IMG/VR virus record: IMGVR_UViG_3300050821_010639
Span: 88,047 to 152,046 of that record
Length of the DNA stretch: 64,000 nucleotides
From: a virus
Direction: 5' to 3' (one strand)
This document shows, piece after piece, positions 18,110 through 63,142 of the stretch. The notes below the pieces were generated by a model. The model did no database searches. It had not been told where the DNA came from and was given only the letters and a program-made list of their open reading frames with translations. The position numbers and the translations under genes were made by a program. Every line of letters begins with the position of its first letter. Position 1 is the stretch's first letter.

Positions 18110-18124
18110 GCCGATGTACCGGGC
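18110..18124 (+). promoter_or_regulatory. CCGAT start element (variant, + strand)
   Basis: CCGAT occupies positions -14 to -10 before ATG 18125, the same place as the CCGATT elements elsewhere. The terminator at 18065-18097 leaves no other room for a promoter. Confidence 0.35.
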
Positions 18125-18487
18125 ATGAAGACGAACGCGGAACTCATCGCCGGACTGCAAGCGCTGGACGGGGACCTGCCGGCGCGGGTGCTGGCGGCCG
18201 GGCCGGACGGGAGCGTCAGCTCGTACGACATCACGGGCGTCGCCGCCGGGCCGGCCGACTTCGGGCAGCAGGCCAGCATCAGCATCGGCTTAGGTCAGAC
18301 ACCGCCGAACCGCCCGAAGTCCGGTACCGCCGGCGCGTCCAGCCGGGTGAACAGGTGCGCCACCTCGGCGATGCTGCGGTGCCGGGACGGCGGCGCCACC
18401 ACCTGCACCCCGAAGTCACCCGGGTACAGCAGCCAGTGCAGGTCACGCAGCGCGTACCAGTCCGGCAGTTTCCCGGGGTCCCGGTAG
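18125..18487 (+). CDS. Small hypothetical protein, C-terminus uncertain
   Basis: The first ~57 residues (MKTNAELIAGLQALDGDLPA onward to about 18295) look coding. Beyond that the frame reads antisense to the convergent gene and has Ser/Arg-rich non-coding character. A one-base change near GGCTTAG (18286-18292) would end it at TAG. The real product may be ~57 residues. Confidence 0.45.
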   Translation: MKTNAELIAGLQALDGDLPARVLAAGPDGSVSSYDITGVAAGPADFGQQASISIGLGQTPPNRPKSGTAGASSRVNRCATSAMLRCRDGGATTCTPKSPGYSSQCRSRSAYQSGSFPGSR

Positions 18488-18840
18488 TACGACAGCGAGA
18501 CGTGCGCCCACAGGCCGCCGCCGTCTTCCCGGTGCAGGGAGTGGATCATCTTCAGGTTCAGGCTGCCGTGCCCCCAGCCGCCCAGGCCGGCGGTGCCCTC
18601 GAACGCCCGGCGCCAGCCCGCGGCCTTCAGCCGGCGCTCCTGCCCCGGCGCGTCCGCCCGGAGGCGGGCCTGCAAGTCCCCGTCCGCCACCGACCGCTCG
18701 TAGTAATCCCGGGCCGCGCGCTCCTCGTCAGGGCCCAGCCCTGTGAGCGCGGCCATGCCGGCGTTCTCCTGCTCCAGGTGCGCGCGCAGCGCGGCGCTGT
18801 TGTCCCTGACCCCGGCCTTGCGGCCTGATGAGCGTCCCAT
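18295..18840 (-). CDS. Hypothetical protein resembling DUF7694, 181 aa
   Basis: C-terminal pattern HVSLSYYRDPGKLPDWYALR, then LHWLLYPGDFGVQVV and IAEVAHLFTRLD, resembles a domain widespread in actinophage hypothetical proteins. The N-terminal ~80 residues are helical. It lies behind the operator-promoter at 19093-19122 with a leader of about 240 nt that folds into a strong hairpin. Confidence 0.55.
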   Translation of the reverse strand: MGRSSGRKAGVRDNSAALRAHLEQENAGMAALTGLGPDEERAARDYYERSVADGDLQARLRADAPGQERRLKAAGWRRAFEGTAGLGGWGHGSLNLKMIHSLHREDGGGLWAHVSLSYYRDPGKLPDWYALRDLHWLLYPGDFGVQVVAPPSRHRSIAEVAHLFTRLDAPAVPDFGRFGGV

Positions 18841-18889
18841 GGTCTTTTAATACGCCCGGCGGCCCGGCTCTCTCGCGCTGGATTGTCAT

Positions 18890-18958
18890 GCCGGGGCATG
18901 GCTCGCCCCCTACCCCACGATTCGAACAAAATCGAGAGGTGGCGGCCCGTGCCCCGGC
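18890..18958 (-). other. Structured leader hairpin
   Basis: GCCGGGGCA (18890-18898) pairs perfectly with TGCCCCGGC (18950-18958). An inner 5-bp stem, CGATT/AATCG, spans 18918-18934. It is in the predicted 5' leader of the leftward gene starting at 18840. The outer stem looks like a tRNA acceptor, but no cloverleaf fits. Confidence 0.5.
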
Positions 18959-19092
18959 TATGCGTCGCCGTCCGCATGGGGAGAGATGCCCCAAGTCTTC
19001 TCCACCAGCCAGGTGCCTTGCAGGTAAGCGGCTCACCCACTCGCAAGGGGCAGCGGTGCGCCTGCGGCATATCCTGACTAGCCTCGTGCCAG

Positions 19093-19122
19093 AGCTTAGT
19101 CATCTGCTAAACTCCGGTCAAG
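19093..19122 (-). promoter_or_regulatory. Degenerate operator-promoter, 19107-19122
   Basis: CTAAACTCCGGTCAAG on the + strand. Read leftward: -35 TTGACC, 17-nt spacer, -10 TAAGCT (19098-19093), the same geometry as the other members. Only one arm is intact. It overlaps the region upstream of the rightward zinc-finger gene, so it could also influence that gene. Confidence 0.6.
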
Positions 19123-19150
19123 ACAACAGATAGGCACGGAGGTGCACCAG

Positions 19151-19378
19151 ATGGCCGAGCTTGACCCGGCACTGACCGTTGCCTGCCCGCTTTGCAAGGC
19201 GGAGCGCGGCCAGCCTTGCCTCTCCCGCAACGCGGTGAGCGTTCACCAGGCCCGGCGCAGCGCCCTCCAGGGCCTGACCTCCCGGGCCAACGCGATTCTC
19301 CGCAAGGCCGACGGCCCGTCTAAGACCCCGGCCGCGAAGCGCAAGCGCGGGAAGCGCCGCACTAACCGCCGATCGTAA
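19151..19378 (+). CDS. Phage-type zinc-finger protein, 75 aa
   Basis: ATG 19151 with CGGAGG 8 nt upstream. CPLCKAERGQPC followed by VHQARRSAL fits the small zinc finger (CPxC...GxPC...HxxR) frequent in actinomycetes and their phages. The C-terminus is strongly basic (AAKRKRGKRRTNRRS), so nucleic-acid binding is likely. Its end overlaps the convergent gene by 17 nt. Confidence 0.7.
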   Translation: MAELDPALTVACPLCKAERGQPCLSRNAVSVHQARRSALQGLTSRANAILRKADGPSKTPAAKRKRGKRRTNRRS

Positions 19379-20018
19379 TTTCAGTGCGAAAAACCCATGC
19401 GACTCCCGGCTCTTTCACGCCGTAGCCGGCAGGGTGCGACCGCCGGTTAACCATGACCGGCTGCTCGCCGGCGTAGGCGCCGCGCAGCGCGTGGTGCGGC
19501 TCCGGCGTGAGCGGCCCGGTCGCCCAGCACCACTCGTGCCAGGCGAAGCAGGCCTCGGACTCAGCGAACGTGGCCTGCCCCCCGATGACGCCCGGCCGCG
19601 GCACGTGCGGGTAGCCGGCGTCCATCGGCCGGTACCAGGTCTGCCCCGGTTCCTCGCCACTGACCGGGCCGAGGTGAACGTGCTCGCGGTCGAACGCGGT
19701 GGCGTCCCCGCCCACCCCGAACGCGGCCCGGCCCGCCTCCAGCGCGTGCCCGCCCAGCCCGGTGAGCAGCAGCGCGAGGTTAAGGGTGCCCCCGACCGTC
19801 ACCCCGTTGCCCTCGTCGTAGACGGTGCCGCCCTCCGGCTCGCGAAACAGCAAGCGCATCAGGCTGCCGTGCAGCACGGTCCGCGGAGCCAGGGCGAGCC
19901 GCTGCGACCACGGGACCTCGCGGCGCTCGCGCGCGTACCGGACCTGGTCGGGGCTGTACTTCTCGATCGTGCACACAGGGTGCCAGGTGATGCCGTCACG
20001 GGCGAGGGGCGAGGCCAT
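19362..20018 (-). CDS. Hypothetical protein, 218 aa
   Basis: Start set at ATG 20018 (MASPLARDGITWHPV); the frame upstream reads like non-coding sequence. Several W/H/Y-rich segments (WHEWCWATGPLTPEPHHAL). No Shine-Dalgarno; a GACGATTG element sits exactly 7 nt before the ATG. Function not recognised. Confidence 0.6.
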   Translation of the reverse strand: MASPLARDGITWHPVCTIEKYSPDQVRYARERREVPWSQRLALAPRTVLHGSLMRLLFREPEGGTVYDEGNGVTVGGTLNLALLLTGLGGHALEAGRAAFGVGGDATAFDREHVHLGPVSGEEPGQTWYRPMDAGYPHVPRPGVIGGQATFAESEACFAWHEWCWATGPLTPEPHHALRGAYAGEQPVMVNRRSHPAGYGVKEPGVAWVFRTEITIGG

Positions 20019-20033
20019 GCCGGGGCAATCGTC
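20019..20033 (-). promoter_or_regulatory. CGATT start element
   Basis: GACGATTG, 7-nt spacer CCCCGGC, ATG 20018. Located in the divergent gap between this gene and the DivIVA-like gene, i.e. non-coding on both sides. Confidence 0.5.
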
Positions 20034-20148
20034 GCCGCGGCCCTGCTCAGCGCGGCTGCTTGCATTCAGGCAAGTAACTACATCTTCCGGACGCCCGGTG
20101 TTAGTCTCCGGCTTATGCCTGGACGCATCCGGGCAGGGGAGGACAGAC

Positions 20149-20769
20149 ATGGACAGGACCAGCCTGCTCGGCAGCCGTAGGATCTCCGGCGACCAGGCGC
20201 GCCGGGTGAATTTCCCGTCTCAGGTGCTGGGGGGCTACCGGCCAGGCGACGTGGAGGCGTTCCGTACCCGGGTCACGGCGGAGCTGGACACGCTGGGCCG
20301 GGCACTGGAAGACAGCCAGGCGCAGACACTGGAGCTTGAGCGCGAGGTGGTACGGCTCAGCGAGGAACTGGCCCAGGTCCGCTCCCACCGGCCGGCCGCG
20401 GTGAGCGGCGAGCACGCGATCGACATCCTGAGCGTCGCCCAGGGCCACGCGGACCAGCTGGTGGCCGGGGCCAAGCAGGAGGCCGACCGGCTGGTGAGCA
20501 CCGCCGGGCACGAGGCCCGGCAGATGACCGAGCACGCCCGCCAGCAGGCCGCGGGCATCATCCGCCAGGCCACTAACGAGGGCGGCGCCGAGAAGGCGCG
20601 CATCATCGACTCGGCCACCGCCGAGTCCCGCCGCCAGGCCAGCTTCTACGCCGGGCTGGCAAGGGCGATGGGCGATGGGCTCGGCGGCCAGGTGGAGACC
20701 CTGCTCAAGAACCTGTCGGAGTGGGAGAGCCAGGCCCGGCAGGGCGCCCGGGAGCCGGCTCCCGCCTAG
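20149..20769 (+). CDS. DivIVA-like polar coiled-coil protein
   Basis: ATG 20149 with AGGGGAGG 6 nt upstream. Residues ~19-55 match the DivIVA N-terminal module (VNFPSQVLGGYRPGDVEAFR), followed by a coiled coil to ~80 and an Ala/Glu/Gln-rich helical region (~95-175: AQGHADQLVAGAKQEADRLV) like that of Wag31-type proteins. DivIVA marks growing poles in actinomycetes. The gene is isolated and rightward, surrounded by leftward late genes, as expected of an accessory gene. Confidence 0.7.
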   Translation: MDRTSLLGSRRISGDQARRVNFPSQVLGGYRPGDVEAFRTRVTAELDTLGRALEDSQAQTLELEREVVRLSEELAQVRSHRPAAVSGEHAIDILSVAQGHADQLVAGAKQEADRLVSTAGHEARQMTEHARQQAAGIIRQATNEGGAEKARIIDSATAESRRQASFYAGLARAMGDGLGGQVETLLKNLSEWESQARQGAREPAPA

Positions 20770-20995: not shown

Positions 20996-20998
20996 CAG

Positions 20999-27051: not shown

Positions 27052-27085
27052 GCCCGGCCTCCTCCGTCAACGGGCGGAGGGCCCA

Positions 27086-39492: not shown

Positions 39493-40505
39493 TCACCCTC
39501 CCCTCCCCGGCATCGGCGGCGGACCTCCCATAAGGCTTAGGAAGGCTTCATAGCTTCCGGCCCCGTTGTCCGCCTCCACCCCGGCGTCAGGGTTGGCGGC
39601 TACCTTGCCGAAGCGCGGGTCGTCCTCCACCCGGTCAGCGACCTTGGGGCCGCGGATGCGGTCAAGCTCCTGCTCCTCGGGGCTCTTGCCGCCGAAGATG
39701 TCGATGGACTGTGCCATCTCAACCAGCGGGTTCCTGCCGCCGGTCTTCGACGTGTCCACCATCGCCTGCGCCCCGATGAACTGGCACACCATCTTCACCT
39801 GCCACTCAGCCAGCCTCAGCCGGGCCTTGTTCTCCCGGCCGCGCCGCGACTCCGCCGCCTCCAGGCACTGCCGGACCCGGCACAGCGGGAGGCCTAGGAC
39901 GTACTCGTCGGTCCACCCGTACTCGTGGCTGAGGACGTCGAACGCCGCCGCGAACGCGCCGGCGAGTTGAGGTCCCGCACCGTCGCCTCCGGCTCCGGCG
40001 GCTCCTTGTCCTGGCCCGTCTTGCGGAACAGGTCCAGGGTCCGCTGAAGCTTTTTTCCCAGGGCCTGCAGCTCCGGGGCCTCCCGGCGGATGATGTCCTC
40101 AATCAGGTCGAGGGTGTCGCCCAGCTCAGGGTTGTGCAGTTCCTCGTTGAACCGCGTCCACAGCGCCTGGTTGGCCTCGGTCTCCTGCTTGGTGAGCTGC
40201 GAGGCGGGCTTGTCCACGATGCCGGCTGGCCGGGTCATCGACGCCAGGAAGCCGATGGCCTCCTGCTCGGCGTCAGGAATCGACATGATGACCAGCATGA
40301 GCAGCTTCTGGCCGAACACCTCCGACCCGGCCGCGAAGTCGAGCCCGCTCTGGGCCAGCGCCGGGCCCGCCCCGTGGGTGAGCACGCGCAGCAGGCGGAA
40401 GAACTGGCGGGTCTGCATCCGCACCACTTCGACCTCGAAGCCGGTGGACAGCTTGCGGGCCTCAGGCTGCGGGTCGATGCGGTCAAGCTCGGAGTCGTCC
40501 GGCAT
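39493..40505 (-). CDS. Tail assembly chaperone, long -1 frameshift product
   Basis: Translation starts at ATG 40505 and slips back one base on GGGAAAAAAG (40059-40050). It then continues in the -1 frame (KKASADPGPVPQD, later LSHEYGWTDEYVLGLPLCRV and ENKARLRLAEWQVKMVCQFI) to the stop at 39493. This is the G/GT-type arrangement conserved in long-tailed phages just upstream of the tape measure. The long form helps load tail-tube subunits on the tape measure. Confidence 0.85.
39894..40505 (-). CDS. Tail assembly chaperone, short product
   Basis: The unshifted frame, 203 residues, starts MPDDSELDRIDPQPEARK behind GAGG. It shares its first ~150 residues with the long form. The last ~50 residues are low-complexity, as expected for sequence that mainly encodes the other frame. 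Confidence 0.8.
   Translation of the reverse strand: MPDDSELDRIDPQPEARKLSTGFEVEVVRMQTRQFFRLLRVLTHGAGPALAQSGLDFAAGSEVFGQKLLMLVIMSIPDAEQEAIGFLASMTRPAGIVDKPASQLTKQETEANQALWTRFNEELHNPELGDTLDLIEDIIRREAPELQALGKKLQRTLDLFRKTGQDKEPPEPEATVRDLNSPARSRRRSTSSATSTGGPTSTS
40050..40059 (-). promoter_or_regulatory. Programmed -1 ribosomal slippery site
   Basis: Minus-strand GGGAAAAAAG read as CTG GGA AAA AAG. It contains two overlapping X-XXY-YYZ heptamers in the correct frame, GGGAAAA and AAAAAAG. Confidence 0.85.
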
Positions 40506-40559
40506 GCGGTCCTCACAGGGACTCTCGGGGTCAGTTGTCCGAGCAATCGGCGAACAACG

Positions 40560-40872: not shown

Positions 40873-41532
40873 CTAGACCACCGTCCCGCCGCCGGCCCCG
40901 AAGGGCTCGGGCACGAACGCCCCGGTCTCGGTGCCCGGCATGGACACCAGGCGACCGATCGCGTTGCCGGCCGAGCCGGAGGTGCCGCCGTAGGCGGACG
41001 GCAGCGACACGCCGACCTCGTTGACCGTGGAGAACAGCGCGCGGCCCGCGATGCTGCAGCTCAGGCCGGTCTTGTACGACGGGCCGGTGAAGTTGAACGG
41101 CTGGAACTGCACGCGGTACAGGATGAAGTCCAGTGTCCGGATCTGCCCGCCGGCGTCCTTGGACGGCACCCGGATGGCCAGCGGCTGGGTGACCTGGTTC
41201 ATGCTCGCCAGGGTCCACAGCGGGATGGCGTAGTAGTCCGCGCCCGCGGCGCCGCTGGAAGTCACCGTCGTGCCGGTGATGTACGCGATAGTCGAGAAGG
41301 GGATGTACCCCTCCTCAATGGTCACGTTGGCGAAGTTGATCCAGAAGTGCTCGGAGAGGACGACGTCGTCGCCGGTGTTCTCGAAGTTGCCCTGGTCAGT
41401 GGAAATCGTGCCGTTGCGAACGCCGTAGACAGTCGCGCCCTCAGCCCCGGTCGAGCCGTTCAGGATGGCGGCGTGGCTGAGGGAGAAGCCCTCGAACGGC
41501 GTGCCCGCAAAGGTGTTGCTGGCGGTGGGCAT
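40873..41532 (-). CDS. Major tail (tube) protein
   Basis: 219 residues of beta-rich sequence (FENTGDDVVLSEHFWINF, IEEGYIPFSTIAYITGTTV) with Shine-Dalgarno AGGAGAGG. Position before the chaperones and tape measure, size and composition fit a siphovirus tube protein. No domain signature seen beyond that. Confidence 0.75.
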   Translation of the reverse strand: MPTASNTFAGTPFEGFSLSHAAILNGSTGAEGATVYGVRNGTISTDQGNFENTGDDVVLSEHFWINFANVTIEEGYIPFSTIAYITGTTVTSSGAAGADYYAIPLWTLASMNQVTQPLAIRVPSKDAGGQIRTLDFILYRVQFQPFNFTGPSYKTGLSCSIAGRALFSTVNEVGVSLPSAYGGTSGSAGNAIGRLVSMPGTETGAFVPEPFGAGGGTVV

Positions 41533-41586
41533 AGTCTCGGGCCCTCTCCTGCTAGGCGGCGAACCTCGCAGGCCTAATCGGCTCGG

Positions 41587-45437: not shown

Positions 45438-46031
45438 CTAAGCCGCCCGCACCAGGCTGAGCCGTGCCTGCAGCAGGCCGGACAGGTCGCCCGGCTTGAC
45501 GTAGCCTGTCCAGCGCTTGTCGTCAAAGAGCTGCACGCCGTTGAGCCGGTAGGCCGCGTCGACGTACTGCGAGCAGATCATCCGGTTAGTCGACTCGATG
45601 TACCCGCGCAGGCCGGGCGCCGGGACGCGCAGCATGTGCAGCACCAGCGCGCCGTAGTCGGCGAACGAGTAGCCGGTGTCCTGGTGGCTCACCGCCCAGG
45701 CGGTGATGCCGGTCCGCTGGGTGCCGGTCAGGTCGATGAGCCCGGACGACCACAGCGAGCCGGGCAGCTCCCAGGCGGGGCACGGCAGGGCGCGCTTGCC
45801 AGGGCCGCTCGGGTAGGTGCTGACCGTGTAGCCGAACGGCCCGGCCGCGTCGGCCTTGCCGATGTAGACCGTGGTGTGGTCGTAGAACTGGAAGCGGTCG
45901 CCGTCCAGCCACTGCCCGACGGTGATGCCGAGCCCGACAGGGCCGCTGACCGGGACGCAGCAGAAGTCACCGGGCCGGGGCCGGGACACCGCGATGGGGG
46001 CAGGCCAGCCGGCTACGGCGCGGTAGTGCAC
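45438..46031 (-). CDS. Permuted NlpC/P60-type peptidase-like protein
   Basis: 197 residues: GDFCCVPVSG at ~21-30, QFYDHTTVYIG with the candidate His at ~70, and ICSQYVDAAYRLNG with the candidate Cys at ~152. His-before-Cys order is that of circularly permuted papain-fold (YiiX-like) enzymes. Start GTG 46031 has no Shine-Dalgarno but a TCCGATTA element 7 nt upstream. Likely cell-wall amidase/peptidase of the lysis module. Confidence 0.65.
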   Translation of the reverse strand: MHYRAVAGWPAPIAVSRPRPGDFCCVPVSGPVGLGITVGQWLDGDRFQFYDHTTVYIGKADAAGPFGYTVSTYPSGPGKRALPCPAWELPGSLWSSGLIDLTGTQRTGITAWAVSHQDTGYSFADYGALVLHMLRVPAPGLRGYIESTNRMICSQYVDAAYRLNGVQLFDDKRWTGYVKPGDLSGLLQARLSLVRAA

Positions 46032-46046
46032 GCGCGGCTAATCGGA
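46032..46046 (-). promoter_or_regulatory. CCGATT start element
   Basis: TCCGATTA, 7-nt spacer GCCGCGC, GTG 46031. The preceding gene's last codons (TCC GAT TAG) are part of the element. Confidence 0.55.
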
Positions 46047-48723: not shown

Positions 48724-49245
48724 CTATTCGGTCGCATCCGTCCAGCCGCTGTACTCCACCCCGTAGTAAGCCGTCCCGCGCAGCATCCAGTCGCCGTCGG
48801 CTACCGGCTGGAAGACGGGCTCAGTCAGCAACTGGCAGCCGATGGTGCACAGGTCGCCCCAGAACACCGCGTCCGGGTCGGTGCGCTGCAGCCGGAACTG
48901 AACGGCGTTGAACACCGCCATGCCGCGGTTGCCGGTGACAGAGGAGGACTCGCTGACGTTGGCAGAGGCGTCGCGCTGCGGGTCAATCCAGATGTCCAGG
49001 CGCAGCCGCCGGTAACGGGCGGTAGAGCCAGGCACCGGGACCTCCCAGCCGCCGAAGTCGGCGCACACGACGGCTGCGGCCGAGGTGCCCTCCATGACCT
49101 TGAGCACGCCCTGGTTCATGTCGCTGAACAGCCACGGCCTGCCGGCGAACCCGGGCGGGTCAGACAGCGGGTAGGAGCCGAGCAGGCTGATGACGTCGGT
49201 GAACTGGCTCAAGTAGCGAACTGAGCCGGTCGCTACGTCATCCAC
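48724..49245 (-). CDS. Probable tail terminator/neck protein, 173 aa
   Basis: RYLSQFTDVISLLGSYPLSD and RLRLDIWIDPQRDAS suggest the tail-terminator fold, and the gene closes the head-to-tail joining block. GTG 49245 has no Shine-Dalgarno but a TCCGATTA element 7 nt upstream. Confidence 0.55.
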   Translation of the reverse strand: MDDVATGSVRYLSQFTDVISLLGSYPLSDPPGFAGRPWLFSDMNQGVLKVMEGTSAAAVVCADFGGWEVPVPGSTARYRRLRLDIWIDPQRDASANVSESSSVTGNRGMAVFNAVQFRLQRTDPDAVFWGDLCTIGCQLLTEPVFQPVADGDWMLRGTAYYGVEYSGWTDATE

Positions 49246-49260
49246 GTGCCGCTAATCGGA
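49246..49260 (-). promoter_or_regulatory. CCGATT start element
   Basis: TCCGATTA, 7-nt spacer GCGGCAC, GTG 49245. Overlaps the previous gene's TCC GAT TAG end. Confidence 0.55.
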
Positions 49261-49485: not shown

Positions 49486-49910
49486 CAGTCGCCGCCGCTC
49501 TTCCACGGCAGGCCGGCCGACGGGGCCCTCCCGCCCTTGCCGCCGGTCACCCAGTTCCAGAACGCCTGCCGCACGCCCGCCTCGAACTCGTGGCCGCCGG
49601 GATCGAAGAAGTAGTGGCGGCCGGGCACGGGGTGGTGCCTGGTCGGGGCGTCGCCGCGCGCCAGCTCGAAGATGCCGGGGTTACGCGCGTAGTCGATTTC
49701 GCCTGTCCAGGTGTACTTGTCGAAGTGCGACTGCGGGTGACCGGACTCCAGCAGCCCCCCGGTGATGACGTGCACCCGGCGCTCGGTGATAGCGTAGCCG
49801 AGCATCAGCGCCGCTTCCATGTGGGCGATGGTCTGCGCGTCCGGGCCGCGGGCCAGCCGGTCCAGCTCCTCGCCCGCCCCGTCCAGGTAGACCGCGAAGT
49901 ACTCAGCCAT
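49485..49910 (-). CDS. Neck-region protein, 141 aa
   Basis: ATG 49910 (MAEYFAVYLDGAGEELDRLA). Helical, then an aromatic C-terminal half (HSHFDKYTWTGEIDYARNPG-type region and GHEFEAGVRQAFWNWVTGG). Position suggests a head-tail connector or minor head-completion role. Confidence 0.55.
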   Translation of the reverse strand: MAEYFAVYLDGAGEELDRLARGPDAQTIAHMEAALMLGYAITERRVHVITGGLLESGHPQSHFDKYTWTGEIDYARNPGIFELARGDAPTRHHPVPGRHYFFDPGGHEFEAGVRQAFWNWVTGGKGGRAPSAGLPWKSGGD

Positions 49911-50400
49911 CTGCGCTGCCCGGGTACGGCGTCGGGCTGCCTGGCTTGAGCATCTGGGATACCTCGAAAACCTGGGTCTCGATGTGGTGCGCGCCGAACA
50001 GGTTCTGCGCGACGTCGGGGATGAGCCGGACCTCGAACGTGCCGAAGATCGGGCCCTGCACGCACTGCAGGCGGTCGCCCGCCTTGACCAGCGACGCGCC
50101 GTTGGCGTCAGGCGCGGGGTCAAAGTAGCAGACACCCGTGCGGTCGGGGGCACGGCCGGCCACGACGGGGGCGGGCTGGTCCTTGCCGGGCCGCAGGAAC
50201 GTCAGGTCAAGGCGGCACTGCAGCAGGCCGGGCGTGTTCAGGTAGTGGTCCACCACCTGGTCCACCGGGTCCCAGGCGAACGCCATGCCGCCGCCGGAGT
50301 TCAGCGTCTCGTTGAGGCGGAGCACCTGGCAGACCGAGGTGTAGAACATCCGCATGCCCTGGCCAGGCGCGAACGGCTGGTAAGGCTGCGGCGTGGTCAT
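49903..50400 (-). CDS. Head-closure-type protein, 165 aa
   Basis: Begins MTTPQPYQPFAPGQGMRMFY. KAGDRLQCVQGPIFGTFEVR is a small-barrel-like segment as in neck/head-closure proteins. Start has a TCCGATTC element 7 nt upstream and ATGA overlap with the previous gene. Confidence 0.55.
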   Translation of the reverse strand: MTTPQPYQPFAPGQGMRMFYTSVCQVLRLNETLNSGGGMAFAWDPVDQVVDHYLNTPGLLQCRLDLTFLRPGKDQPAPVVAGRAPDRTGVCYFDPAPDANGASLVKAGDRLQCVQGPIFGTFEVRLIPDVAQNLFGAHHIETQVFEVSQMLKPGSPTPYPGSADG

Positions 50401-50666
50401 GCACTGGGAATCGGAGGCCGCTTCATCACCCTGAGCGTGACCCGGCCGGGAGCGGCCGGGTAGACGCGCAGGTTCATAACCGGAGACGGCCGGAAGCTCA
50501 GCTCGGGCACCGCCTGGATGTCGATCATGTGCCCGTCAAAGTCGAACTCAGTGTCCACCAGCAGGTCCGTGCCTTCCGCTACCGCCGAGGACCCGTCCGG
50601 GTAGTAGAGGTAGATCGCGAGCCGGACCGCCCGCTGGCGGGTACCGTGGTCAAACGGGATCGTCAC
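50397..50666 (-). CDS. Small structural-region protein, 89 aa
   Basis: GTG start with AGGGTG. Beta-rich (AIYLYYPDGSSAVAEGTDLL; FRPSPVMNLRVYPAAPGRV). Unknown; in the neck block. Confidence 0.55.
   Translation of the reverse strand: MTIPFDHGTRQRAVRLAIYLYYPDGSSAVAEGTDLLVDTEFDFDGHMIDIQAVPELSFRPSPVMNLRVYPAAPGRVTLRVMKRPPIPSA
50401..50415 (-). promoter_or_regulatory. CCGATT start element
   Basis: TCCGATTC, 7-nt spacer CCAGTGC, ATG 50400. Here the preceding gene reads it as CCG ATT, a different frame from the TCC GAT TAG cases. Confidence 0.55.
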
Positions 50667-50803
50667 CAGTTCACCCTGCCGTACAGCAGCAGGTCCCCGA
50701 TGATGAACAACGCGGAGAACACGATGCCCGCGCCAATAGCGAACAGCAGCGTGAACAGGACCCTGTGCCAGAGCCTGTACCCCTGCACCCCCCGGTGAGC
50801 CAT
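50663..50803 (-). CDS. Small membrane protein, 46 aa
   Basis: ATG 50803 shares TGATG with the upstream stop. One long hydrophobic segment (VLFTLLFAIGAGIVFSALFI). A membrane protein within the head-neck block is unusual. Confidence 0.55.
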   Translation of the reverse strand: MAHRGVQGYRLWHRVLFTLLFAIGAGIVFSALFIIGDLLLYGRVNW

Positions 50804-50949
50804 CACACCACCTGCCAGCCGTGCCCGTGAAAGAGGTTCCACACCTTGCCGTGCACGCTCTCCGGGTAGTACCACTGGGTGGCCCACCCCGGCGGCGCGA
50901 AAAAAGCCCAGAGCCCGCCGAAGAGCCCGTCGTTCGCCAGCTTCCTCAT
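50803..50949 (-). CDS. Small aromatic-rich protein, 48 aa
   Basis: ATG 50949 overlaps the upstream TGA and the gene ends in TGATG, so translation is coupled on both sides. Trp/Tyr/His-rich (GWATQWYYPESVHGKVWNLF). No family recognised. Confidence 0.55.
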   Translation of the reverse strand: MRKLANDGLFGGLWAFFAPPGWATQWYYPESVHGKVWNLFHGHGWQVV

Positions 50950-51389
50950 GCAGCCGGGATCGGCGCGTACCTCTTCACCGGGATGCCGTGGCCCTCAGCG
51001 TAGCGCGCGCAGTGCCCGGTGCCGTGCGTAACGTGGAAAGGCCAGCCCGGGTCAGGCTGCTTGCCCCTGCACTCCTGCCGCTCGCAGGGCAGCCCGAACG
51101 CCAGGCAGCCCCACGCACCCAGGTCCACCATCTCCGCGCTGCGCCGGAACCCGGCACTGCGGTCGAACGAGCCGCTGGCGTACCAGTCCACCGGGTGGCG
51201 CTCGGTGCCGCCGCCCAGGTACGCGTCCCAGAACGTCTCGCACAGCAGGTCCGCCCCGCGCGGGCACCCGCCGCTGACCAGCAGGATGTCCGGGTCGAAG
51301 TCCCACAGCCTCTTCAGGGGCTTGCGGATGGCGCCCCAGTCGTCCCAGTCCTGCGACCCGGTGACCAGCAGGCGGCGGCGCTCAGCCAC
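50946..51389 (-). CDS. DUF2493/SLOG-family protein
   Basis: 147 residues from GTG 51389. RLLVTGSQDWDDWGAI and PDILLVSGGCPRGADLLCET form the Rossmann-like nucleotide-binding pattern of the SLOG superfamily (YspA/DUF2493 type). These are thought to sense or process nucleotide-derived signals. Its place between connector genes is unusual. Confidence 0.75.
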   Translation of the reverse strand: MAERRRLLVTGSQDWDDWGAIRKPLKRLWDFDPDILLVSGGCPRGADLLCETFWDAYLGGGTERHPVDWYASGSFDRSAGFRRSAEMVDLGAWGCLAFGLPCERQECRGKQPDPGWPFHVTHGTGHCARYAEGHGIPVKRYAPIPAA

Positions 51390-51771
51390 CGAGGTAGCGA
51401 ATCGTGTCTTCTTCCACCATGTCGGCGAACCGGCGCGCACCGTTGACGATGGCCTCGCAGCTCTTGGTGTCGTCTCGCTGGTACCGCAAGACGCCGAAGA
51501 ACCCGGTCGCGAACACCGCCGGGCCGTCCGTCGACAGTACGGCCACCGCCTCGGCCCCGTTCCACCTCGGCTGCCACTCGAAGTTCGCGAACTTCAGCTC
51601 TTCGAGGCCCTGGGCCTTGAGCGCGGTTAGCAGCGCGCCGTTACCCGGCAGCTGGGCCACCTGCGTGAGCGCGTCCCAGAACGCCTGCTTGGCCCGAGCC
51701 CGGTCTTCCGCCGACACGTCGGCCTGGTCACATCCGGCGACCTTAGCCGCCAGCTCCCTGTAAATGTCCAT
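51382..51771 (-). CDS. Hypothetical structural-region protein, 129 aa
   Basis: Starts MDIYRELAAKVAGCDQADVS. Helical first half, beta second half (EAVAVLSTDGPAVFATGFFG). Overlaps the SLOG gene by 8 nt. Not recognised. Confidence 0.6.
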   Translation of the reverse strand: MDIYRELAAKVAGCDQADVSAEDRARAKQAFWDALTQVAQLPGNGALLTALKAQGLEELKFANFEWQPRWNGAEAVAVLSTDGPAVFATGFFGVLRYQRDDTKSCEAIVNGARRFADMVEEDTIRYLGG

Positions 51772-51784
51772 GCCCGTACTACGC

Positions 51785-52363
51785 TTAAGACGGGTCGGCC
51801 GGGAAGCTCTCCGCGCTGATGCTGAAGAACTGGAAGTCGATCTTGTCGTGGTCAGCCGGGCCGACCAGCACCATCCGCTGCTCGCGCGGGTCCCACTTGA
51901 CGTAGGCGAGGTCATCGCGCCCGGTGTGCTCGAAGCCCGTGACCTGGCCGAAGAACACGCCATTCATCGCCTGGCGCCGGGCCAGGCGCCGGATGGCCAG
52001 GTCGAACATCTGCACGCCAGTCTGCTCGGACGTGACCTCGATCGCCTGCGCGTTGCGGGCCATCTCCTGGACCGGCTTGGAGTAGGAGTAGGAGCCGATC
52101 GTCTCGGCCTGCAGCGGGCTCGCCAGCACCTGCGCGTACGGCCAGCGCAGGTACAGGTAGTCGGCCATCGCCATCACGCCCATGTTGGCCAGGGCCTGGA
52201 AGTCCGGCTGCATGCCGCCGTAGTCGTCCGCGCTCAGCTCGCTCAGGATGGTGAACATCATCGTCGCCTGCAGCAGCGCCGAGTTCACGTAAGCGGTGTA
52301 GCTGGCCAGCGGCCGGCCGGTGTACTGCGCCAGCTCCTGCGAAGTCGGCACGGGCCAGGTCAT
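51785..52363 (-). CDS. Head-tail adaptor-type protein, 192 aa
   Basis: MTWPVPTSQELAQYTGRPLA with helices (YVNSALLQATMMFTILSEL) resembles the gp6/gp15-like helical connector that binds under the portal. Shine-Dalgarno GGAGGG. Ends 13 nt before the next gene. Confidence 0.6.
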   Translation of the reverse strand: MTWPVPTSQELAQYTGRPLASYTAYVNSALLQATMMFTILSELSADDYGGMQPDFQALANMGVMAMADYLYLRWPYAQVLASPLQAETIGSYSYSKPVQEMARNAQAIEVTSEQTGVQMFDLAIRRLARRQAMNGVFFGQVTGFEHTGRDDLAYVKWDPREQRMVLVGPADHDKIDFQFFSISAESFPADPS

Positions 52364-52704
52364 GCGCCCTCCAGCAGCGCTGACAGGTCCACGGAGGCCC
52401 CCAGGGCGGACGGGACCGAGATGCCCTCGTAGGGGGGAGGGTTGTTGTCAGCGCTGGTCAGCCGCAGCGTGACGGTGTAGGTGAACGCCGGGCTCACGGC
52501 GTCGGTCGCCGGGATGGTCACCGGGAGCATCACCCCGTCCGTGACCTGCGCCATGGCCGACCCGAAGACCACGAGGTCAGCGGCCGGATCGGCGACAGGC
52601 TCGCTGGCGGTGAAAACCACGTAGCCGGACAGGGGCGCCCCGCCGAAGTCGCGGAGGTTCTCGCCAGTAACCTCGATCGCGGCCAGCCCGCCGGGGAAGG
52701 TCAC
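52360..52704 (-). CDS. Ig-like or decoration-type small protein, 114 aa
   Basis: Beta-sandwich-like sequence (LSGYVVFTASEPVADPAADL; FTYTVTLRLTSADNN). GTG start, weak ribosome site. In the connector block. Confidence 0.5.
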   Translation of the reverse strand: MTFPGGLAAIEVTGENLRDFGGAPLSGYVVFTASEPVADPAADLVVFGSAMAQVTDGVMLPVTIPATDAVSPAFTYTVTLRLTSADNNPPPYEGISVPSALGASVDLSALLEGA

Positions 52705-52710: not shown

Positions 52711-53424
52711 TCACCCGAACGCCGGGGCCGGCACCGCCCGGCCGCGCCTGCGCTCGGCCTCGTCGGCGTCGCGCAGTTGCTGCACGGTCGGTCCGGTGAT
52801 GGCGACCTTGTTGCCCTGCGCGTCCCGGCCGAAAAGCTGCTCGAAGCTGCCGTAAGCCTCAGCGTAGGAAGAGCGGCCGGGCCACGGGCCGAAGTCAAAC
52901 TTCTGCTCGCCCCAGCGGTCGGCCTGCTGCCAGCGGTTCAGGGTGATCCAGCCGAGTGCCTCGGTCCAGCGCGGATGGTCCGGGCCGATCGACAGCTCCT
53001 GGCCGCGGTACCAGACCTGGCCGAACGCGGTCAGCCCGTCAGCGACGAAGTGAATGAGGACGGCCTCGCCCTCCGCCGGCACGTACTGCTGGGGGGCACT
53101 CTCGAACTGCGCGGCGGCGGCCACGGCGGCGGCATGCTCCCGCTCACGGTCAGCTTTTTCCGCCGGGGTCAGCTCGGCCGCGGGCTTGGGCCGCTGGGGC
53201 TCGCCGCGCACCGGGATGGACGCGCCGACTGGCAGCCCGCACGCGCCGCAGAACCGCATGCCGGGCGCGTTGGGGTGCCCGAGCGGGCAGGAAGACGCAA
53301 TCTCCGTTGGAACCCCGGGCGGCGGTTCCAATCTTGAGGCGGTTTCGTTGGAGGTGCTGGGGCACAGCCGCTCGGAAAGGGCCACCACGTCGATTACGGC
53401 CTGCTCGCCGCTCAGTCCTGCCAT
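52711..53424 (-). CDS. Zinc-ribbon structural-region protein, 237 aa
   Basis: Start at ATG 53424 (MAGLSGEQAVIDVVALSERL); the frame upstream looks non-coding. A C-x-x-x-H / CGACG zinc ribbon lies near residues 45-65 (CPLGHPNAPGMRFCGACG), then a helix and an acidic domain. Common as a hypothetical protein just after the capsid gene of actinophages. Confidence 0.65.
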   Translation of the reverse strand: MAGLSGEQAVIDVVALSERLCPSTSNETASRLEPPPGVPTEIASSCPLGHPNAPGMRFCGACGLPVGASIPVRGEPQRPKPAAELTPAEKADREREHAAAVAAAAQFESAPQQYVPAEGEAVLIHFVADGLTAFGQVWYRGQELSIGPDHPRWTEALGWITLNRWQQADRWGEQKFDFGPWPGRSSYAEAYGSFEQLFGRDAQGNKVAITGPTVQQLRDADEAERRRGRAVPAPAFG

Positions 53425-53439
53425 GCCGGGGGTATCGGC
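53425..53439 (-). promoter_or_regulatory. CCGATA start element (variant)
   Basis: GCCGATAC, 7-nt spacer CCCCGGC, ATG 53424. The spacer is identical to that of the element at 20019-20033; the core has one change (CCGATA). Confidence 0.4.
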
Positions 53440-53747: not shown

Positions 53748-53776
53748 CTGTACTGGGCTCGATGACAGGCTCCAGG

Positions 53777-55121: not shown

Positions 55122-55124
55122 AAA

Positions 55125-55159
55125 GCCGCGCCCCGGGGGCTCGCATCCCGGGGCGCGGC
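55125..55159 (-). terminator. Strong terminator upstream of the capsid gene
   Basis: Perfect 13-bp arms GCCGCGCCCCGGG / CCCGGGGCGCGGC followed leftward by TTTTT. Confidence 0.9.
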
Positions 55160-55191
55160 AGTGGCGGTTTACCGCTTAACCGTCAATATCA

Positions 55192-55536
55192 CTAAGCAGG
55201 CGGCACCAGGGTGTTGAGCCCGCCGACCGAAGTGTCCAGCGCTGCCTGGTTCTGCGCGAGCGAGGCGACCGCGGCGTTGAGGTCCGAGGTGTCCACGTTC
55301 TGCGGCAGGGCCGCGAGCGCGGCCTGGATATTGGTCACGTCGGTGCCGATGGCGGCCGACTGGGCCTGAAGGTCACCCATGGTCGCGTTGATCTGGGTGA
55401 CCGCCGCGTTGATGTCGTCTTGAGCTGCCACGATTTCTCCTAGCTTGCCGTCGATCTGGGACAGCCTCTGGTCCAGCCGGCGCTCAAGCGCGGCAAGGTC
55501 TGCCCGGGTAACCCACACGCCGGGGCTATCGGTCAC
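55192..55536 (-). CDS. Coiled-coil capsid-region protein, 114 aa
   Basis: Heptad-rich helices (DLAALERRLDQRLSQIDGKL; NAAVTQINATMGDLQAQSAA). GTG overlaps the decoration-protein TAG. Possible fibre- or spike-like head accessory. Confidence 0.6.
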   Translation of the reverse strand: MTDSPGVWVTRADLAALERRLDQRLSQIDGKLGEIVAAQDDINAAVTQINATMGDLQAQSAAIGTDVTNIQAALAALPQNVDTSDLNAAVASLAQNQAALDTSVGGLNTLVPPA

Positions 55537-56225: not shown

Positions 56226-56256
56226 CAGCCGCGCTCCTCGCTGCGCCTATCCCCGG

Positions 56257-57396
56257 TTACTGCCGGGTCCCGTCGGAGGTGAAGAAGTCCTTGTGCTGCG
56301 CGGTGAGCCGCGCCACCTCGGCGTCGATGTCCTGCTCCTGGCGCTGCTCGCCGTCCGGGCCGGACAGCCCCACCTGCTGGTCGAGCTTCACGTACGGACG
56401 GTCAGCCGGGGCGAGGATGGCGTCCAGGTCATCGCGGCGGGACAGCGCCATCTCGATGGCTGCAGCCCTGGCCTTGGGCAGCAGGCGGCCGGCCCCGATG
56501 TAGCCGTCCACCTCGGTCATGGCCGCCCGGCGCTGCAAGCCGGTCACCGTCTCGCGCAGGCCCTTGTTGTCCGCGGCCAGCTCGACCACCGCAGCGGTGA
56601 CGTCGGACAGGCTCACCGTGCCCGGGTCAGCGGACAGCTGGAACGTGCCCGAGTCCTTGAGTGCCTCCGCGACGGCGACGGGCAGCGCCTGCATGAACTC
56701 GGCCGACAGCGCGGCGGCGTCCGGGGCCGCAGTGGCGGCGGCCTGCAAGGCGGCGACGTCGATGCCGTGCTCGTTCTTCAGAGCGGCGAGCAGCTCTTCC
56801 CTGGTAAGCGGCACGGTTTCCTCCGGCACGGGAGTCAGGACGACGACTTCTCCGGTGCTATCGGCTGACGCGGCAAGGACTTCCTTGTAGTCGTCTAGGT
56901 CCACGCAGTACGGCCGGTTTGTCACCGCGACGTGGAGGAGTGTTGGGCCGACCTTCTTGTCAGTCCGCGTATCGGTGTAGTTCGTGCTCAGGAACGCAGA
57001 CGCACCCAGGTACGTCTTGCCGAGGCGGGCCGCCGCCTGCTCGTCGCGCGCGTCGATGAGGGCGTACACCTTGTCACCACGGGACTTGATGCCGACGACT
57101 TCACCGATGTTGGCATCAGGGTTCTCCACGTGCTCGTTCCTCGCGTTAGCGAGGGGCACCTGGACGATGGGACAGACTCCGGCCTTGAAGTTCGCCTCCA
57201 TCGCAGACACGAAGCCATCGTCAATATTGATCCGGACCTTGGTCACCGGATGAATAAGCGGGCCTTTGTTGAGGATGTGCTTTTCGAACAGCCGGCCTGT
57301 GACCTGGCGCGACCGGGCCAGCTCCACCGGGACGTCCTCAACCGGCCGGAAGGCTCCGCCAGGGGCGGGCACGATGTAACGAAGGTCATCGCCCAT
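56257..57396 (-). CDS. Mu I-like prohead protease and scaffold
   Basis: 379 residues: N-terminal protease-like domain to ~190 (VTGRLFEKHILNKGPLIHPV, GKTYLGASAFLSTNYTD with the likely catalytic Ser, LLHVAVTNRPYCVDLDDYKE) and a helical, Ala/Asp/Gln-rich scaffold part. No Shine-Dalgarno; TCCGATTA element 8 nt upstream. Confidence 0.75.
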   Translation of the reverse strand: MGDDLRYIVPAPGGAFRPVEDVPVELARSRQVTGRLFEKHILNKGPLIHPVTKVRINIDDGFVSAMEANFKAGVCPIVQVPLANARNEHVENPDANIGEVVGIKSRGDKVYALIDARDEQAAARLGKTYLGASAFLSTNYTDTRTDKKVGPTLLHVAVTNRPYCVDLDDYKEVLAASADSTGEVVVLTPVPEETVPLTREELLAALKNEHGIDVAALQAAATAAPDAAALSAEFMQALPVAVAEALKDSGTFQLSADPGTVSLSDVTAAVVELAADNKGLRETVTGLQRRAAMTEVDGYIGAGRLLPKARAAAIEMALSRRDDLDAILAPADRPYVKLDQQVGLSGPDGEQRQEQDIDAEVARLTAQHKDFFTSDGTRQ

Positions 57397-57412
57397 GCCC
57401 CGGGTAATCGGA
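57397..57412 (-). promoter_or_regulatory. CCGATT start element, 8-nt spacing
   Basis: TCCGATTA, 8-nt spacer CCCGGGGC, ATG 57396. Lies in a ~120-nt gap, so it is non-coding here. Confidence 0.5.
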
Positions 57413-57516
57413 CTAAAGCGGAAACGTCCTGGCCTCGGGGTTCAGCACCACGTACCGGCCGAACCGCTGACCCGCCTGAACAAACCTCCTTGGCGTTCCC
57501 ACACGTCTTACTACGC

Positions 57517-57735
57517 CTAAGGCGTCTTCCGCCTGCGGTAGCTGAAGGCAGGCGACCGGGCCATGATGTCGTCGGCTGCCTGGCGGAGGATGTCCTCTGC
57601 CAGCGACGGGTCAGTTTTCGCCACCCGGGCAGCCCTGCGCACGCTGGCCGCCGCATCGTCCAGCCCGGCAGCCTCCAGGCGGTCGGCGATCTCGGCTGCC
57701 TCGGCCGGTATGTCCCCGTCCTGCCGGATGATCAT
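57517..57735 (-). CDS. Small helical protein, 72 aa
   Basis: ATG 57735 behind AGAGG, overlapping the edge of the DUF397 cassette. MIIRQDGDIPAEAAEIADRL, Ala/Asp-rich helices. The same frame stays open to 58197 through the antisense of the DUF397 gene; I take the ATG with the ribosome site as the start. Confidence 0.6.
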   Translation of the reverse strand: MIIRQDGDIPAEAAEIADRLEAAGLDDAAASVRRAARVAKTDPSLAEDILRQAADDIMARSPAFSYRRRKTP

Positions 57736-57742
57736 GTTTCCT

Positions 57743-57772
57743 CTTGACTGGAGTCTAGCAATCGTGCAGAAT
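57743..57772 (+). promoter_or_regulatory. Operator-promoter of the DUF397 gene
   Basis: CTTGACTGGAGTCTAG (57743-57758): left arm intact, right arm partly changed. Rightward -35 TTGACT (57744-57749), 17-nt spacer, -10 CAGAAT (57767-57772). Same operator family and -35/-10 geometry as the early promoters. Confidence 0.65.
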
Positions 57773-57822
57773 GGGTTCCGCTGCAGCAGTCCGTGCAAAC
57801 TTCTACGGCAGGAGAACAGCAA

Positions 57823-58047
57823 GTGCAGACGGCAGGACATCAGGCCGGCCCGACCTGGGTCAAGAGTTCGCTGAGTTTCGCGAACGGCAACTGCGTTGAG
57901 GTAGCGAGCCTGTCCGGCGGCGAAGTTGGCGTCCGGAACAGCAGGGATGCTGCAGGCGCGGTTCTCCGCTTCACGCCAGACGAATGGCGCGCGTTCATCG
58001 GTGGCGTTCAGAGCGGCGAATTCGACAGGTTCGGCCAGCAGGGCTAA
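57823..58047 (+). CDS. DUF397 protein
   Basis: 74 residues from GTG 57823 (AGGAG 8 nt upstream). TWVKSSLSFANGNCVEVASL, VGVRNSRDAAGAVLRFTPDE and WRAFIGGVQSGEFDRFG cover the complete DUF397 domain. In actinomycetes these small proteins pair with XRE-type HTH regulators (WhiJ-like systems) that influence development. No HTH partner is adjacent. The only rightward gene within the head operon, with its own promoter and terminator: a classic moron arrangement. Confidence 0.85.
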   Translation: MQTAGHQAGPTWVKSSLSFANGNCVEVASLSGGEVGVRNSRDAAGAVLRFTPDEWRAFIGGVQSGEFDRFGQQG

Positions 58048-58197
58048 CTCGTCAGCGTCAGGGGCCGCGGTCCCGTCAGCGTCAGCAGCCCCCGGGTCGA
58101 TGGTGACCCGGGGGCTGCTTTCATTCTCCGGCGGCGGCTCCGGCTCCTCGCGCACGGCCCACTCACCGTCGTCCCGCGTCACCCACTCACTGCCCAT
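58048..58197 (-). CDS. Possible remnant or small ORF opposite the DUF397 cassette
   Basis: ATG 58197 carries a CCCGATTA element 7 nt upstream and opens MGSEWVTRDDGEWAVREEPE, which looks coding. Farther on the frame runs antisense through the DUF397 terminator and gene down to 57517 without a stop. It may be a late gene truncated by insertion of the cassette. Confidence 0.35.
58084..58119 (+). terminator. Terminator of the DUF397 unit
   Basis: Perfect 15-bp arms AGCAGCCCCCGGGTC / GACCCGGGGGCTGCT, 6-nt loop, followed by TTCATT. Confidence 0.85.
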
Positions 58198-58212
58198 ACA
58201 GCGCTAATCGGG
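58198..58212 (-). promoter_or_regulatory. CCGATT start element
   Basis: CCCGATTA, 7-nt spacer GCGCTGT, ATG 58197. Overlaps the previous gene's CCC GAT TAG end. Confidence 0.5.
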
Positions 58213-59434: not shown

Positions 59435-59435
59435 G

Positions 59436-59921
59436 CTACTCCGGGTTAAGCGTGCCGCGAAACGACGTGCGCCGGTCAACGTCCGTGGACTCGACCGTGA
59501 CCAGGTACGGGTCCCAGCCCGGGGCGTGAACCGGCTTGTAGGGCCGCGCCCAGTCGCGCGGCCCGGTGTCCCCCTCGCTGGCCAGCGCGAAGTCTTCCAT
59601 GCGCTCGTGCAGGTCCACGTCGCCTAGCCGGTCGAACAGCCACCGCGTCCACGACTGCGCGTTGTACGTCGCCGGGGGCACCGGGAAGTAGTGGTTCACG
59701 TCCATCTGCTGCGACGGGTCGTAAGTGTTCGTGCCGTGCCGCCCGACGACTAGCGTCAGGCCGCGTGACTCGCCGCTGTGGCGGCCGGGCTTGTCCCGCT
59801 GGCAGTCATCCTCAAGCCACACGTTCCAGCCGAGGTGGTCACGGTAGCGGAGCCAGCTGACAAGCTCCGCGAGGATCGCGGGGTACGGGGCAACCTGCTG
59901 CATCTGACGGTCATCGCTCAC
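59436..59921 (-). CDS. Hypothetical protein, 161 aa
   Basis: MSDDRQMQQVAPYPAILAEL; LGWNVWLEDDCQRDKPGRHS; LTLVVGRHGTNTYDPSQQMD. Trp/Asp-rich. GTG start has a TCCGATTG element 7 nt upstream. In the portal-minor head block, role unknown. Confidence 0.6.
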   Translation of the reverse strand: MSDDRQMQQVAPYPAILAELVSWLRYRDHLGWNVWLEDDCQRDKPGRHSGESRGLTLVVGRHGTNTYDPSQQMDVNHYFPVPPATYNAQSWTRWLFDRLGDVDLHERMEDFALASEGDTGPRDWARPYKPVHAPGWDPYLVTVESTDVDRRTSFRGTLNPE

Positions 59922-60214
59922 TGCCCGGCAATCGGAGGCTGGCCCGGCGGCCCAGGCGGCGCCGGGGGCACGGGCGGCTGCATGTGCACGTAAGCGAGGC
60001 CGGAGATGGTGTCGCCCGGCGGGACCACCAGGTTTACCCCTAGCTGCGGGTACACGGCGCCGGCCCCCGTCTTCGGCGGCGGCACCGTCGCCGGCGTCAC
60101 GGGCGCGACGGGAGGCTGCCCCGGGGCCAGGGCAGCCAGCTCCAGCGCGCGCCCGGCGGCGATCTCCTCAACGAGGTCGCGGGCAAGCGCCACCATGGCG
60201 TCGTGCGCGCTCAC
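59918..60214 (-). CDS. Pro-rich small protein, 98 aa
   Basis: GTG overlaps the portal stop. Helical start (MSAHDAMVALARDLVEEIAA) and a Pro-rich end (PPVPPAPPGPPGQPPIAGQ). Unknown. Confidence 0.55.
   Translation of the reverse strand: MSAHDAMVALARDLVEEIAAGRALELAALAPGQPPVAPVTPATVPPPKTGAGAVYPQLGVNLVVPPGDTISGLAYVHMQPPVPPAPPGPPGQPPIAGQ
59922..59936 (-). promoter_or_regulatory. CCGATT start element
   Basis: TCCGATTG, 7-nt spacer CCGGGCA, GTG 59921. Preceding gene reads CCG ATT GCC. Confidence 0.55.
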
Positions 60215-61829: not shown

Positions 61830-61835
61830 ATGGCA

Positions 61836-62510
61836 TCACCTCCCCCTGCAGACAGGAGGCAGCGCCTCGCGGACCTGTTCACCTCCCGTCTGATCGGTTA
61901 GTGCTTCCTCGATGTGCGGAGGCAGGGTCTTCCACCAGTGCTCAGGCCGTCGCAAGTGATGCGACACGCAAAGCGTCACAAGCCAGCGAGGGTCGTTAAC
62001 TGGCCGCAGCCGGTACGGGATGACATGGTGAACGACTAGCCCAGCACCAGACGGAATGAACTCTCCGCCGTCCTGGCAGCTGTAGCCGTCGCGCTCAAGA
62101 ACAGCCCGACGGATCTCCGGCCACGTCGCCCCCCGGTAAGTCCGCTCCGAGGGCGAACTGCCACCTCGGAAGTTCGGGTGGGCATCCCCGCGCAGCCAGT
62201 AGTCCCGAATGCCCGTCAAGCCGAGGGCAGACGCCTTATGCCGCACAGCGCCCTCTGAACGGCCAGTCAGCTCAGCAACAGCCCCTAGCGGCATGTCAGG
62301 TTCCGCTAGGAGTTCTAGCTCCCACGGCTCCCAGCCACGCTGCCAGCTTCGGGCCTTACCCTTGCCGCCTTGGCAGAACACCCGGTTCACTCCGAGCTGG
62401 GAGGCTTTCGTACTAGCGCCAGCCAATGTACGGCCCGTTCGCTCCGCCACCTCAGCCAGCGACAGCGACGTGTCCCGCAACAGTGCTAGCTCAGCCTCAG
62501 TCCACCGCAA
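61836..62510 (-). CDS. HNH homing endonuclease with two HTH repeats
   Basis: TTG start is the likeliest (62510). Two similar HTH units (TSLSLAEVAERTGRTLAG and MPLGAVAELTGRSEGAVRH) are followed by an NUMOD-like HPNFRGG and an HNH core ERDGYSCQDGG, LVVHHVIPYRL, LVTLCVSHHLRRPEHWW. It ends 7 nt before the portal start. Confidence 0.75.
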   Translation of the reverse strand: MRWTEAELALLRDTSLSLAEVAERTGRTLAGASTKASQLGVNRVFCQGGKGKARSWQRGWEPWELELLAEPDMPLGAVAELTGRSEGAVRHKASALGLTGIRDYWLRGDAHPNFRGGSSPSERTYRGATWPEIRRAVLERDGYSCQDGGEFIPSGAGLVVHHVIPYRLRPVNDPRWLVTLCVSHHLRRPEHWWKTLPPHIEEALTDQTGGEQVREALPPVCRGR

Positions 62511-62811
62511 CAGCAGCCTCGCGCAGCCTGCGCAGCTCCGCCACGACCGCGAGCACGCGCCGGTCGCCAGACGGCGGGTTGTACTGGGTCGACTCCTCCC
62601 AGTGCCGCAGGGCCTCTTGCCAGGTCACCCCGGCCGCCTCGTGCTTGCTGCGTAGCGGGCTAGCCGCGTCGCTGGTGCACGACATCTTCATGTCGCGCGA
62701 GTCTCCGACTTCAAGCAGGGCACCGCACACCCGGCAGATCGGCTTCTCCGCGTAGCGAAACTCCAGGACAGCGAGCAGTTCGTCCGTAATCTCAACAGGT
62801 ACTTCACTCAT
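62497..62811 (-). CDS. Zinc-binding-type small protein, 104 aa
   Basis: MSEVPVEITDELLAVLEFRY, then CRVCGALLEVGDSRDMKMSC, which looks like a zinc ribbon. Helical end. Overlaps the HNH start. Unknown role. Confidence 0.6.
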   Translation of the reverse strand: MSEVPVEITDELLAVLEFRYAEKPICRVCGALLEVGDSRDMKMSCTSDAASPLRSKHEAAGVTWQEALRHWEESTQYNPPSGDRRVLAVVAELRRLREAAVAVD

Positions 62812-62836
62812 ACCTGTTGATACGTGCGAGCCCTAA

Positions 62837-63127
62837 CTACCTGCCAGCGGGCCTGCGGGCCGGGGGCTTGTCCTCAGCAGACGGCGCGTCGATCATGCCG
62901 GCCAGGTTATTCGAGTTGACGAACAGGTGCCGCCCGTCCGGCAGGAGCACCTGCACGCCGATGAGGTTGCCCATCTCGGCCGCGATGGTCACGCTGTCAC
63001 TCGGCACGGTAACCTCGCCGACGCCGCCGACCGGCTGGAGGAGGGTGACCACGACGTCGCCCTTCTGCGCGCCGGGAGCGTTGCCGGCGTCGGCCATGAA
63101 CTCGTGCCACATCCCCTTAAGGTGCAT
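62837..63127 (-). CDS. Small protein, 96 aa
   Basis: MHLKGMWHEFMADAGNAPGA, then beta-rich (VTVPSDSVTIAAEMGNLIGV; LPDGRHLFVNSNNLAGMID). ATG 63127 has a GACGATTG element 7 nt upstream and lies directly after a strong hairpin. Confidence 0.6.
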   Translation of the reverse strand: MHLKGMWHEFMADAGNAPGAQKGDVVVTLLQPVGGVGEVTVPSDSVTIAAEMGNLIGVQVLLPDGRHLFVNSNNLAGMIDAPSAEDKPPARRPAGR

Positions 63128-63142
63128 GCACGGGCAATCGTC
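63128..63142 (-). promoter_or_regulatory. CGATT start element behind a terminator
   Basis: GACGATTG, 7-nt spacer CCCGTGC, ATG 63127. Only 8 nt separate it from the terminator hairpin at 63151-63182. Confidence 0.55.

Follow-up and report, generated by a model that had tools for sequence, protein, structure and literature searches.

The CCGAT-core box that stands at a fixed distance before many start codons of this phage is very probably the −10 element of late promoters, read by a phage-encoded sigma factor of the FliA/WhiG (sigma-28) family, with leaderless transcription wherever the transcript start (+1) coincides with the start codon. In the mechanism that we propose, RNA polymerase carrying the phage sigma would bind the box and initiate at the purine nine nucleotides after CGATT. 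For many late genes this purine would be the first base of the ATG or GTG, giving a leaderless mRNA that needs no Shine–Dalgarno (SD) sequence; for other genes the start point would lie 20–50 nt upstream and the gene has an SD. Specificity would come from the extended −10 and the discriminator, on which it would have to rest if there is no −35, perhaps together with a phage coactivator.

The window comprises bases 88,047–152,046 (64,000 nt) of a 152-kb IMG/VR virus record. Its base composition is about 70% GC, and 206 of the 211 called genes lie on the minus strand, with start codons called by a simple home-made script. Among cultured phages, Microbacterium phage Magritte is the closest relative (53% identity for the portal protein and 48% for the major capsid protein). 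In this window, the gene strand has seven instances of CGATT followed by eight nucleotides and RTG (CGATT-N8-RTG) and the opposite strand none, whereas 100 dinucleotide shuffles of the window gave 0.52 on average and never more than 3; in the whole record the counts for the two strands are 11 and 2, respectively. CCGATT itself occurs 11 times on the gene strand and once on the other. An earlier note on this DNA had expected about ten per strand, in agreement with our calculation (9–10), and the clustering at one distance from starts to which it drew attention does exceed the shuffles. Among the position-specific k-mers before the predicted starts of the window, CGATT at spacing 8 ranks near the top (seven seen versus 0.04 expected); taken singly, six related genomes each have it as one of their strongest (7, 8, 7, 7, 8 and 8 seen; 0.03–0.06 expected). 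When spacings from 0 to 30 are compared in six pooled related genomes, there are 65 CGATT at spacing 8 and 0–9 at each other spacing, these being counts from phages whose sites share ancestry and are thus not independent (the median identity of orthologous proteins is 67–69% for the three genomes first compared). The shuffles, the antisense strand and the other spacings rule out chance or base composition as the origin of the box.

Two variants are also enriched at spacing 8 in the pooled set, namely CGATA (9 versus 0.3) and CGATC (19 versus 2.1), which makes CGAT the core and T the favoured next base; CGATG shows no clear enrichment (7 versus 4.8). The box is best written as CCGAT, then T (less often A or C) and then mostly A or G. 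We also sought a −35 element in 120 sites from the six genomes, where no upstream column is conserved and TAAA is absent from the enriched k-mers, so that none shows at either a fixed or a variable distance; the earlier observation that no common −35 is evident therefore holds on this set.

The boxes of the window that we retain are all on the minus strand. For seven starts the element had been reported at one exact distance, and CGATT plus 8 nt is indeed present in the sequence: at 63136..63140 (start 63127, gene 62837–63127; kept in six of six relatives), 59930..59934 (GTG 59921, gene 59436–59921; four of four orthologues), 58206..58210 (start 58197, ORF 57517–58197), 50409..50413 (start 50400, gene 49903–50400; three of six orthologues), 49254..49258 (GTG 49245, gene 48724–49245; six of six), 46040..46044 (GTG 46031, gene 45438–46031; six of six) and 20027..20031 (start 20018, gene 19362–20018; four of six). 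A strong hairpin (−34.1 kcal/mol, z −3.8) ends 10 nt ahead of the first of these. The CGATT at 57406..57410 has the spacer one nucleotide longer that had been noted for it, standing 9 nt before start 57396 of the head maturation protease/scaffold gene (56257–57396), and is kept in six of six phages of the clade. The proposed CGATA variant at 53433..53437, 8 nt before start 53424 (gene 52711–53424), is accepted because the orthologues in five relatives carry CGATT at the same place. On the other hand, the plus-strand case at 18125 (CGATG plus 8 nt) is not accepted, since CGATG is not clearly enriched at this spacing and the ORF runs antiparallel to the neighbouring genes. Four further copies can be added to those listed previously. 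One is a CGATC variant at 50958..50962, 8 nt before start 50949 of a small gene (50803–50949), CGATC being enriched at this spacing. The other three are leadered CGATT boxes: at 57760..57764, 24 nt before start 57735, with the SD gaggaaac; at 41576..41580, 43 nt before a gene with an SD (40873–41532) whose product is 54% identical to the Magritte major tail protein; and at 40545..40549, 39 nt before the tail assembly chaperone gene (39894–40505), which also has an SD, the box being preceded by a strong hairpin. A CGATA at 55531, conserved in four of four, is left out of the sites, because a called gene covers it and its conservation may be that of coding sequence. It should be noted that the minus-strand ORF 57517–58197 has two in-frame starts, 58197 with a leaderless box and 57735 with a leadered box and an SD, which could yield two protein forms. 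Since the genes that follow boxes include those of the head maturation protease, the tail assembly chaperone and the major tail protein homologue, this region is presumably late, and late timing of the box-driven genes is suggested by this gene content.

The box is kept in six of six phages for six orthologous groups, and in four of four or three to four of six for others; the check for relatives lacking the element at orthologous starts, which the earlier note had called for, thus found it present there. The conserved boxes often lie within the preceding gene or span its stop codon. Conservation as a by-product of the overlapped upstream coding sequence can be set aside: the boxes fall in different frames or in noncoding sequence, yet they are kept at orthologous starts. 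A search with the major capsid protein gave 77 loci with identities down to 49%. At loci with at least 70% capsid identity, leaving out the genomes already used, CGATT occurs 119 times at spacing 8 and 32 times at spacing 9, compared with 0–11 at each of the other spacings up to 20; on the antisense strand, spacing 8 has four. Where a related capsid locus includes the protease start, CCGAT followed by T, A or G is in most cases present 8–9 nt upstream, and about 40 additional related loci show the box ahead of one head gene. At the same protease start, with a protein identity of 36%, the boxes of the window, of Magritte and of the diverged phage G006 are at the same place. A contig from another metagenome (L090) has a 100% identical major capsid protein and the same protease promoter.

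The record encodes two sigma factors. The first, P0002, is encoded outside the window (positions 51,676–52,368 of the record, G000, minus strand), and its best NCBIfam match is TIGR02479 (FliA_WhiG) over residues 19–221 (E = 7e-27, 94.6 bits against a curated cut-off of 189.6). The solved sequences nearest to P0002 are Streptomyces venezuelae WhiG and FliA, and Pfam matches cover regions 2 and 4. Its structure model is helical (pLDDT 81.6), with WhiG/FliA among the best Foldseek matches at low whole-chain TM scores (0.30–0.40). The region 2.4/3.0 signature LDxLRxxDWxxRSxR is found in P0002 as LDYLRSQDWVTRSAR, for IDELRALDWIPRSVR in WhiG; this stretch is conserved and belongs to region 2.4/3.0 in the FliA/WhiG family, and L-D-x-x-R-x-Q-D-x-V-x-R-x-x-R is kept in ten of ten aligned copies of the phage sigma. 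In the alignment, the helix of region 4 that ordinarily recognizes the −35 appears to lack some of the WhiG residues, a loss which would fit the absent −35. WhiG and FliA recognize the −10 sequence GCCGATAA together with a TAAA −35 about 15 bp upstream (PMC8325347; PMC2859248), and at Escherichia coli aer transcription starts 6 bp below the octamer (PMC2859248). The phage boxes match GCCGATAA in part: the clade has the CCGAT core, three diverged phages have CGAT, and the bases that follow vary by phage. Counting against the sigma-28 reading are a P0002 score that is half the curated FliA_WhiG cut-off, the absence of TAAA and the position of the octamer, which is 1–2 nt further upstream than in aer if the start codon is taken as +1. 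That P0002 reads the box is suggested by the family resemblance and by the co-occurrence of the two.

Concerning this co-occurrence, five relatives with a 70–83% identical sigma all use CGATT. In phages with a 27–33% identical sigma the bases after CGAT differ, while the spacing is again 8 nt and the starts are leaderless: the box is CCGATATCC in Magritte (site CCGATATCCCTGAC, then ATG), CCGATACTC in G006 (site CCGATACTCCTCGC, then ATG) and CGATAGTAG in G007 (site CCGATAGTAGACCC, then ATG). Among twelve further relatives the sigma gene is present in all seven contigs longer than 100 kb and in one of 95 kb; the four without it are contigs of at most 97 kb that may be fragments. Every tested contig longer than 100 kb has both the sigma and a box of the CGAT kind, and four control actinophages without the sigma give 0–1 pattern matches. 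Magritte gp47 (L021:47155–47895), annotated as a ‘DNA binding protein’, is a FliA/WhiG-like sigma, and the start of Magritte gene 9, placed at 5332, may really be at 5353, 8 nt after CCGATA. Finally, the minus strand of G011, a phage with 30% GC on a contig of L048, has one CCGATA plus 8 nt plus ATG; together with TAAAGTTT, which lies some 10 nt upstream, this site looks like a complete sigma-28 promoter.

The same −10 could also be read by a host sigma of the WhiG/FliA class, or by a host sigma assisted by a phage activator, the phage sigma then serving other promoters. The CCGAT core is that of sigma-28/WhiG −10 elements in general, and the phage does have a further sigma as well as a second class of promoter (see below). 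However, the joint presence of phage sigma and box in every long relative tested, box variants that follow the divergence of the sigma and the missing TAAA of host promoters all speak for the phage sigma as the reader, and we regard this alternative as unlikely.

The distance of the box from the start codon resembles that of an SD, and the earlier note had also considered a new initiation signal, which would take the place of the SD in the mRNA and work through rRNA pairing or a bound factor. Genes with a box at 8–9 nt do mostly lack an SD: a match of at least 4 nt is present in 13% of them, compared with 88% of genes with a box 15–60 nt upstream and 55% of all genes, and 22 of the 30 leaderless-type genes have no SD match. 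Yet the box does not hold a fixed SD-like position before every start, as leadered copies, identical to the others, stand 20–60 nt upstream of genes that have a normal SD of their own. This contradicts a translation signal, as does the match of the core to a known −10. The bases that follow the box point the same way. G/T-G-C occupies positions 6–8 after CGATT in both the leaderless and the leadered class, including leadered sites where no start codon comes next. A tail common to both classes places the start point one base later, which for leaderless genes means the purine of RTG, and this shared tail and the spacing suggest that the transcript 5′ end coincides with the start codon. A role in translation initiation is thus very improbable, and the other proposal of the earlier note, a −10-like box for leaderless late transcripts, is strongly supported by the spacing, the conservation, the SD contrast and the sigma-28 core match. 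RNA processing, in which an endonuclease cuts long transcripts 8 nt after CGATT to release leaderless mRNAs, would likewise fix the distance, but it is hardly credible given that two boxes sit 10–12 nt past strong terminator-like hairpins, where fresh transcription is required, that the box matches a sigma-28 −10 and that these phages encode such a sigma.

Next to these sigma-28-like promoters there is a second class of start with an element at a fixed distance, (C)GTAGTA plus exactly 6 nt plus RTG, with 29 cases in six genomes compared with 0–4 at other spacings. Few of these genes have an SD, and the G/T-G-C tail is shared with the CGATT class. Its sites in the window are at 57515, 53605, 51783 and 39472 on the minus strand, with others elsewhere in the record. 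An ECF-type sigma gene at 217..1011 on the minus strand (TIGR02937, PHROG 1740; 75–81% identical in two relatives) encodes a candidate reader of this class. In Magritte and G006, GCGTATCAC or GCGTATAAC is found 4 nt before ATG. We may wonder whether both classes fuse a −10 to the start codon, with the sigma-28-like factor using CCGATT plus 8 nt and the ECF-type factor GTAGTA plus 6 nt, such that part of the gene programme would be leaderless and driven by phage sigmas without a −35, in place of a promoter and an SD; we put this forward tentatively, as a possibility that we hold somewhat doubtful. In the presumed early region (record 67–95 kb, in the window from its start to about 7000, minus strand) the genes have in common an extended ribosome-site-like sequence, GAAGGGCAGGCAC, before ATG, and no CGATT promoter box was found there. 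Palindromes like CTTGACTNNAGTCAAG, which may be operators, are located near gene starts at 67.9, 75.0, 76.1, 92.7 and 145.8 kb of the record.

With this proposal, late promoters become readable in a large and nearly uncultured group of high-GC phages, for which it also supplies the sigma gene to match and a predicted regulon, so that late genes and their true start codons could be called from sequence. If it is correct, these phages would possess something unusual: a sigma from the flagellar/sporulation family that dispenses with a −35 and dictates leaderless starts. The boxes CGATT, CGATATC, CGATACT and CGATAGT, paired with diverging sigmas, offer a natural test of DNA reading by region 2.4/3.0, and testing is practical as Magritte is cultured and carries the system.

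Among known systems, the flagellar and Streptomyces sporulation promoters of FliA/WhiG (sigma-28) share with the phage boxes the CCGAT core of GCCGATAA and a sigma of the same family. The phage boxes differ from them in having no TAAA −35, in the T rather than A that usually follows CGAT in the clade, in the G/T-G-C before +1, in a +1 placed 1–2 nt further downstream and in the start codon fused to it. The late promoters of T4, read by the phage sigma gp55, likewise consist of an extended −10 without a −35; however, their box, TATAAATA, and their sigma are unrelated, and T4 mRNAs are leadered. Mycobacterial leaderless promoters have RTG at +1, as documented there and as inferred here, no SD, a C favoured at −1 and the −10 just upstream (PMC4633059), but they use the host −10 hexamer for a mixed gene set, whereas the phage uses a dedicated box for mainly late structural genes. 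In the late promoters of phage AR9 (AACA-6N-TA/G), too, a short motif peculiar to the phage keeps a constant distance from the transcription start, but it is read in that case by a phage multisubunit RNA polymerase (PMC5312081) and not, as proposed here, by a sigma on the host polymerase. Late promoters reduced to a −10 and fused to start codons would thus be a new variant on the known theme of phage sigma regulons.
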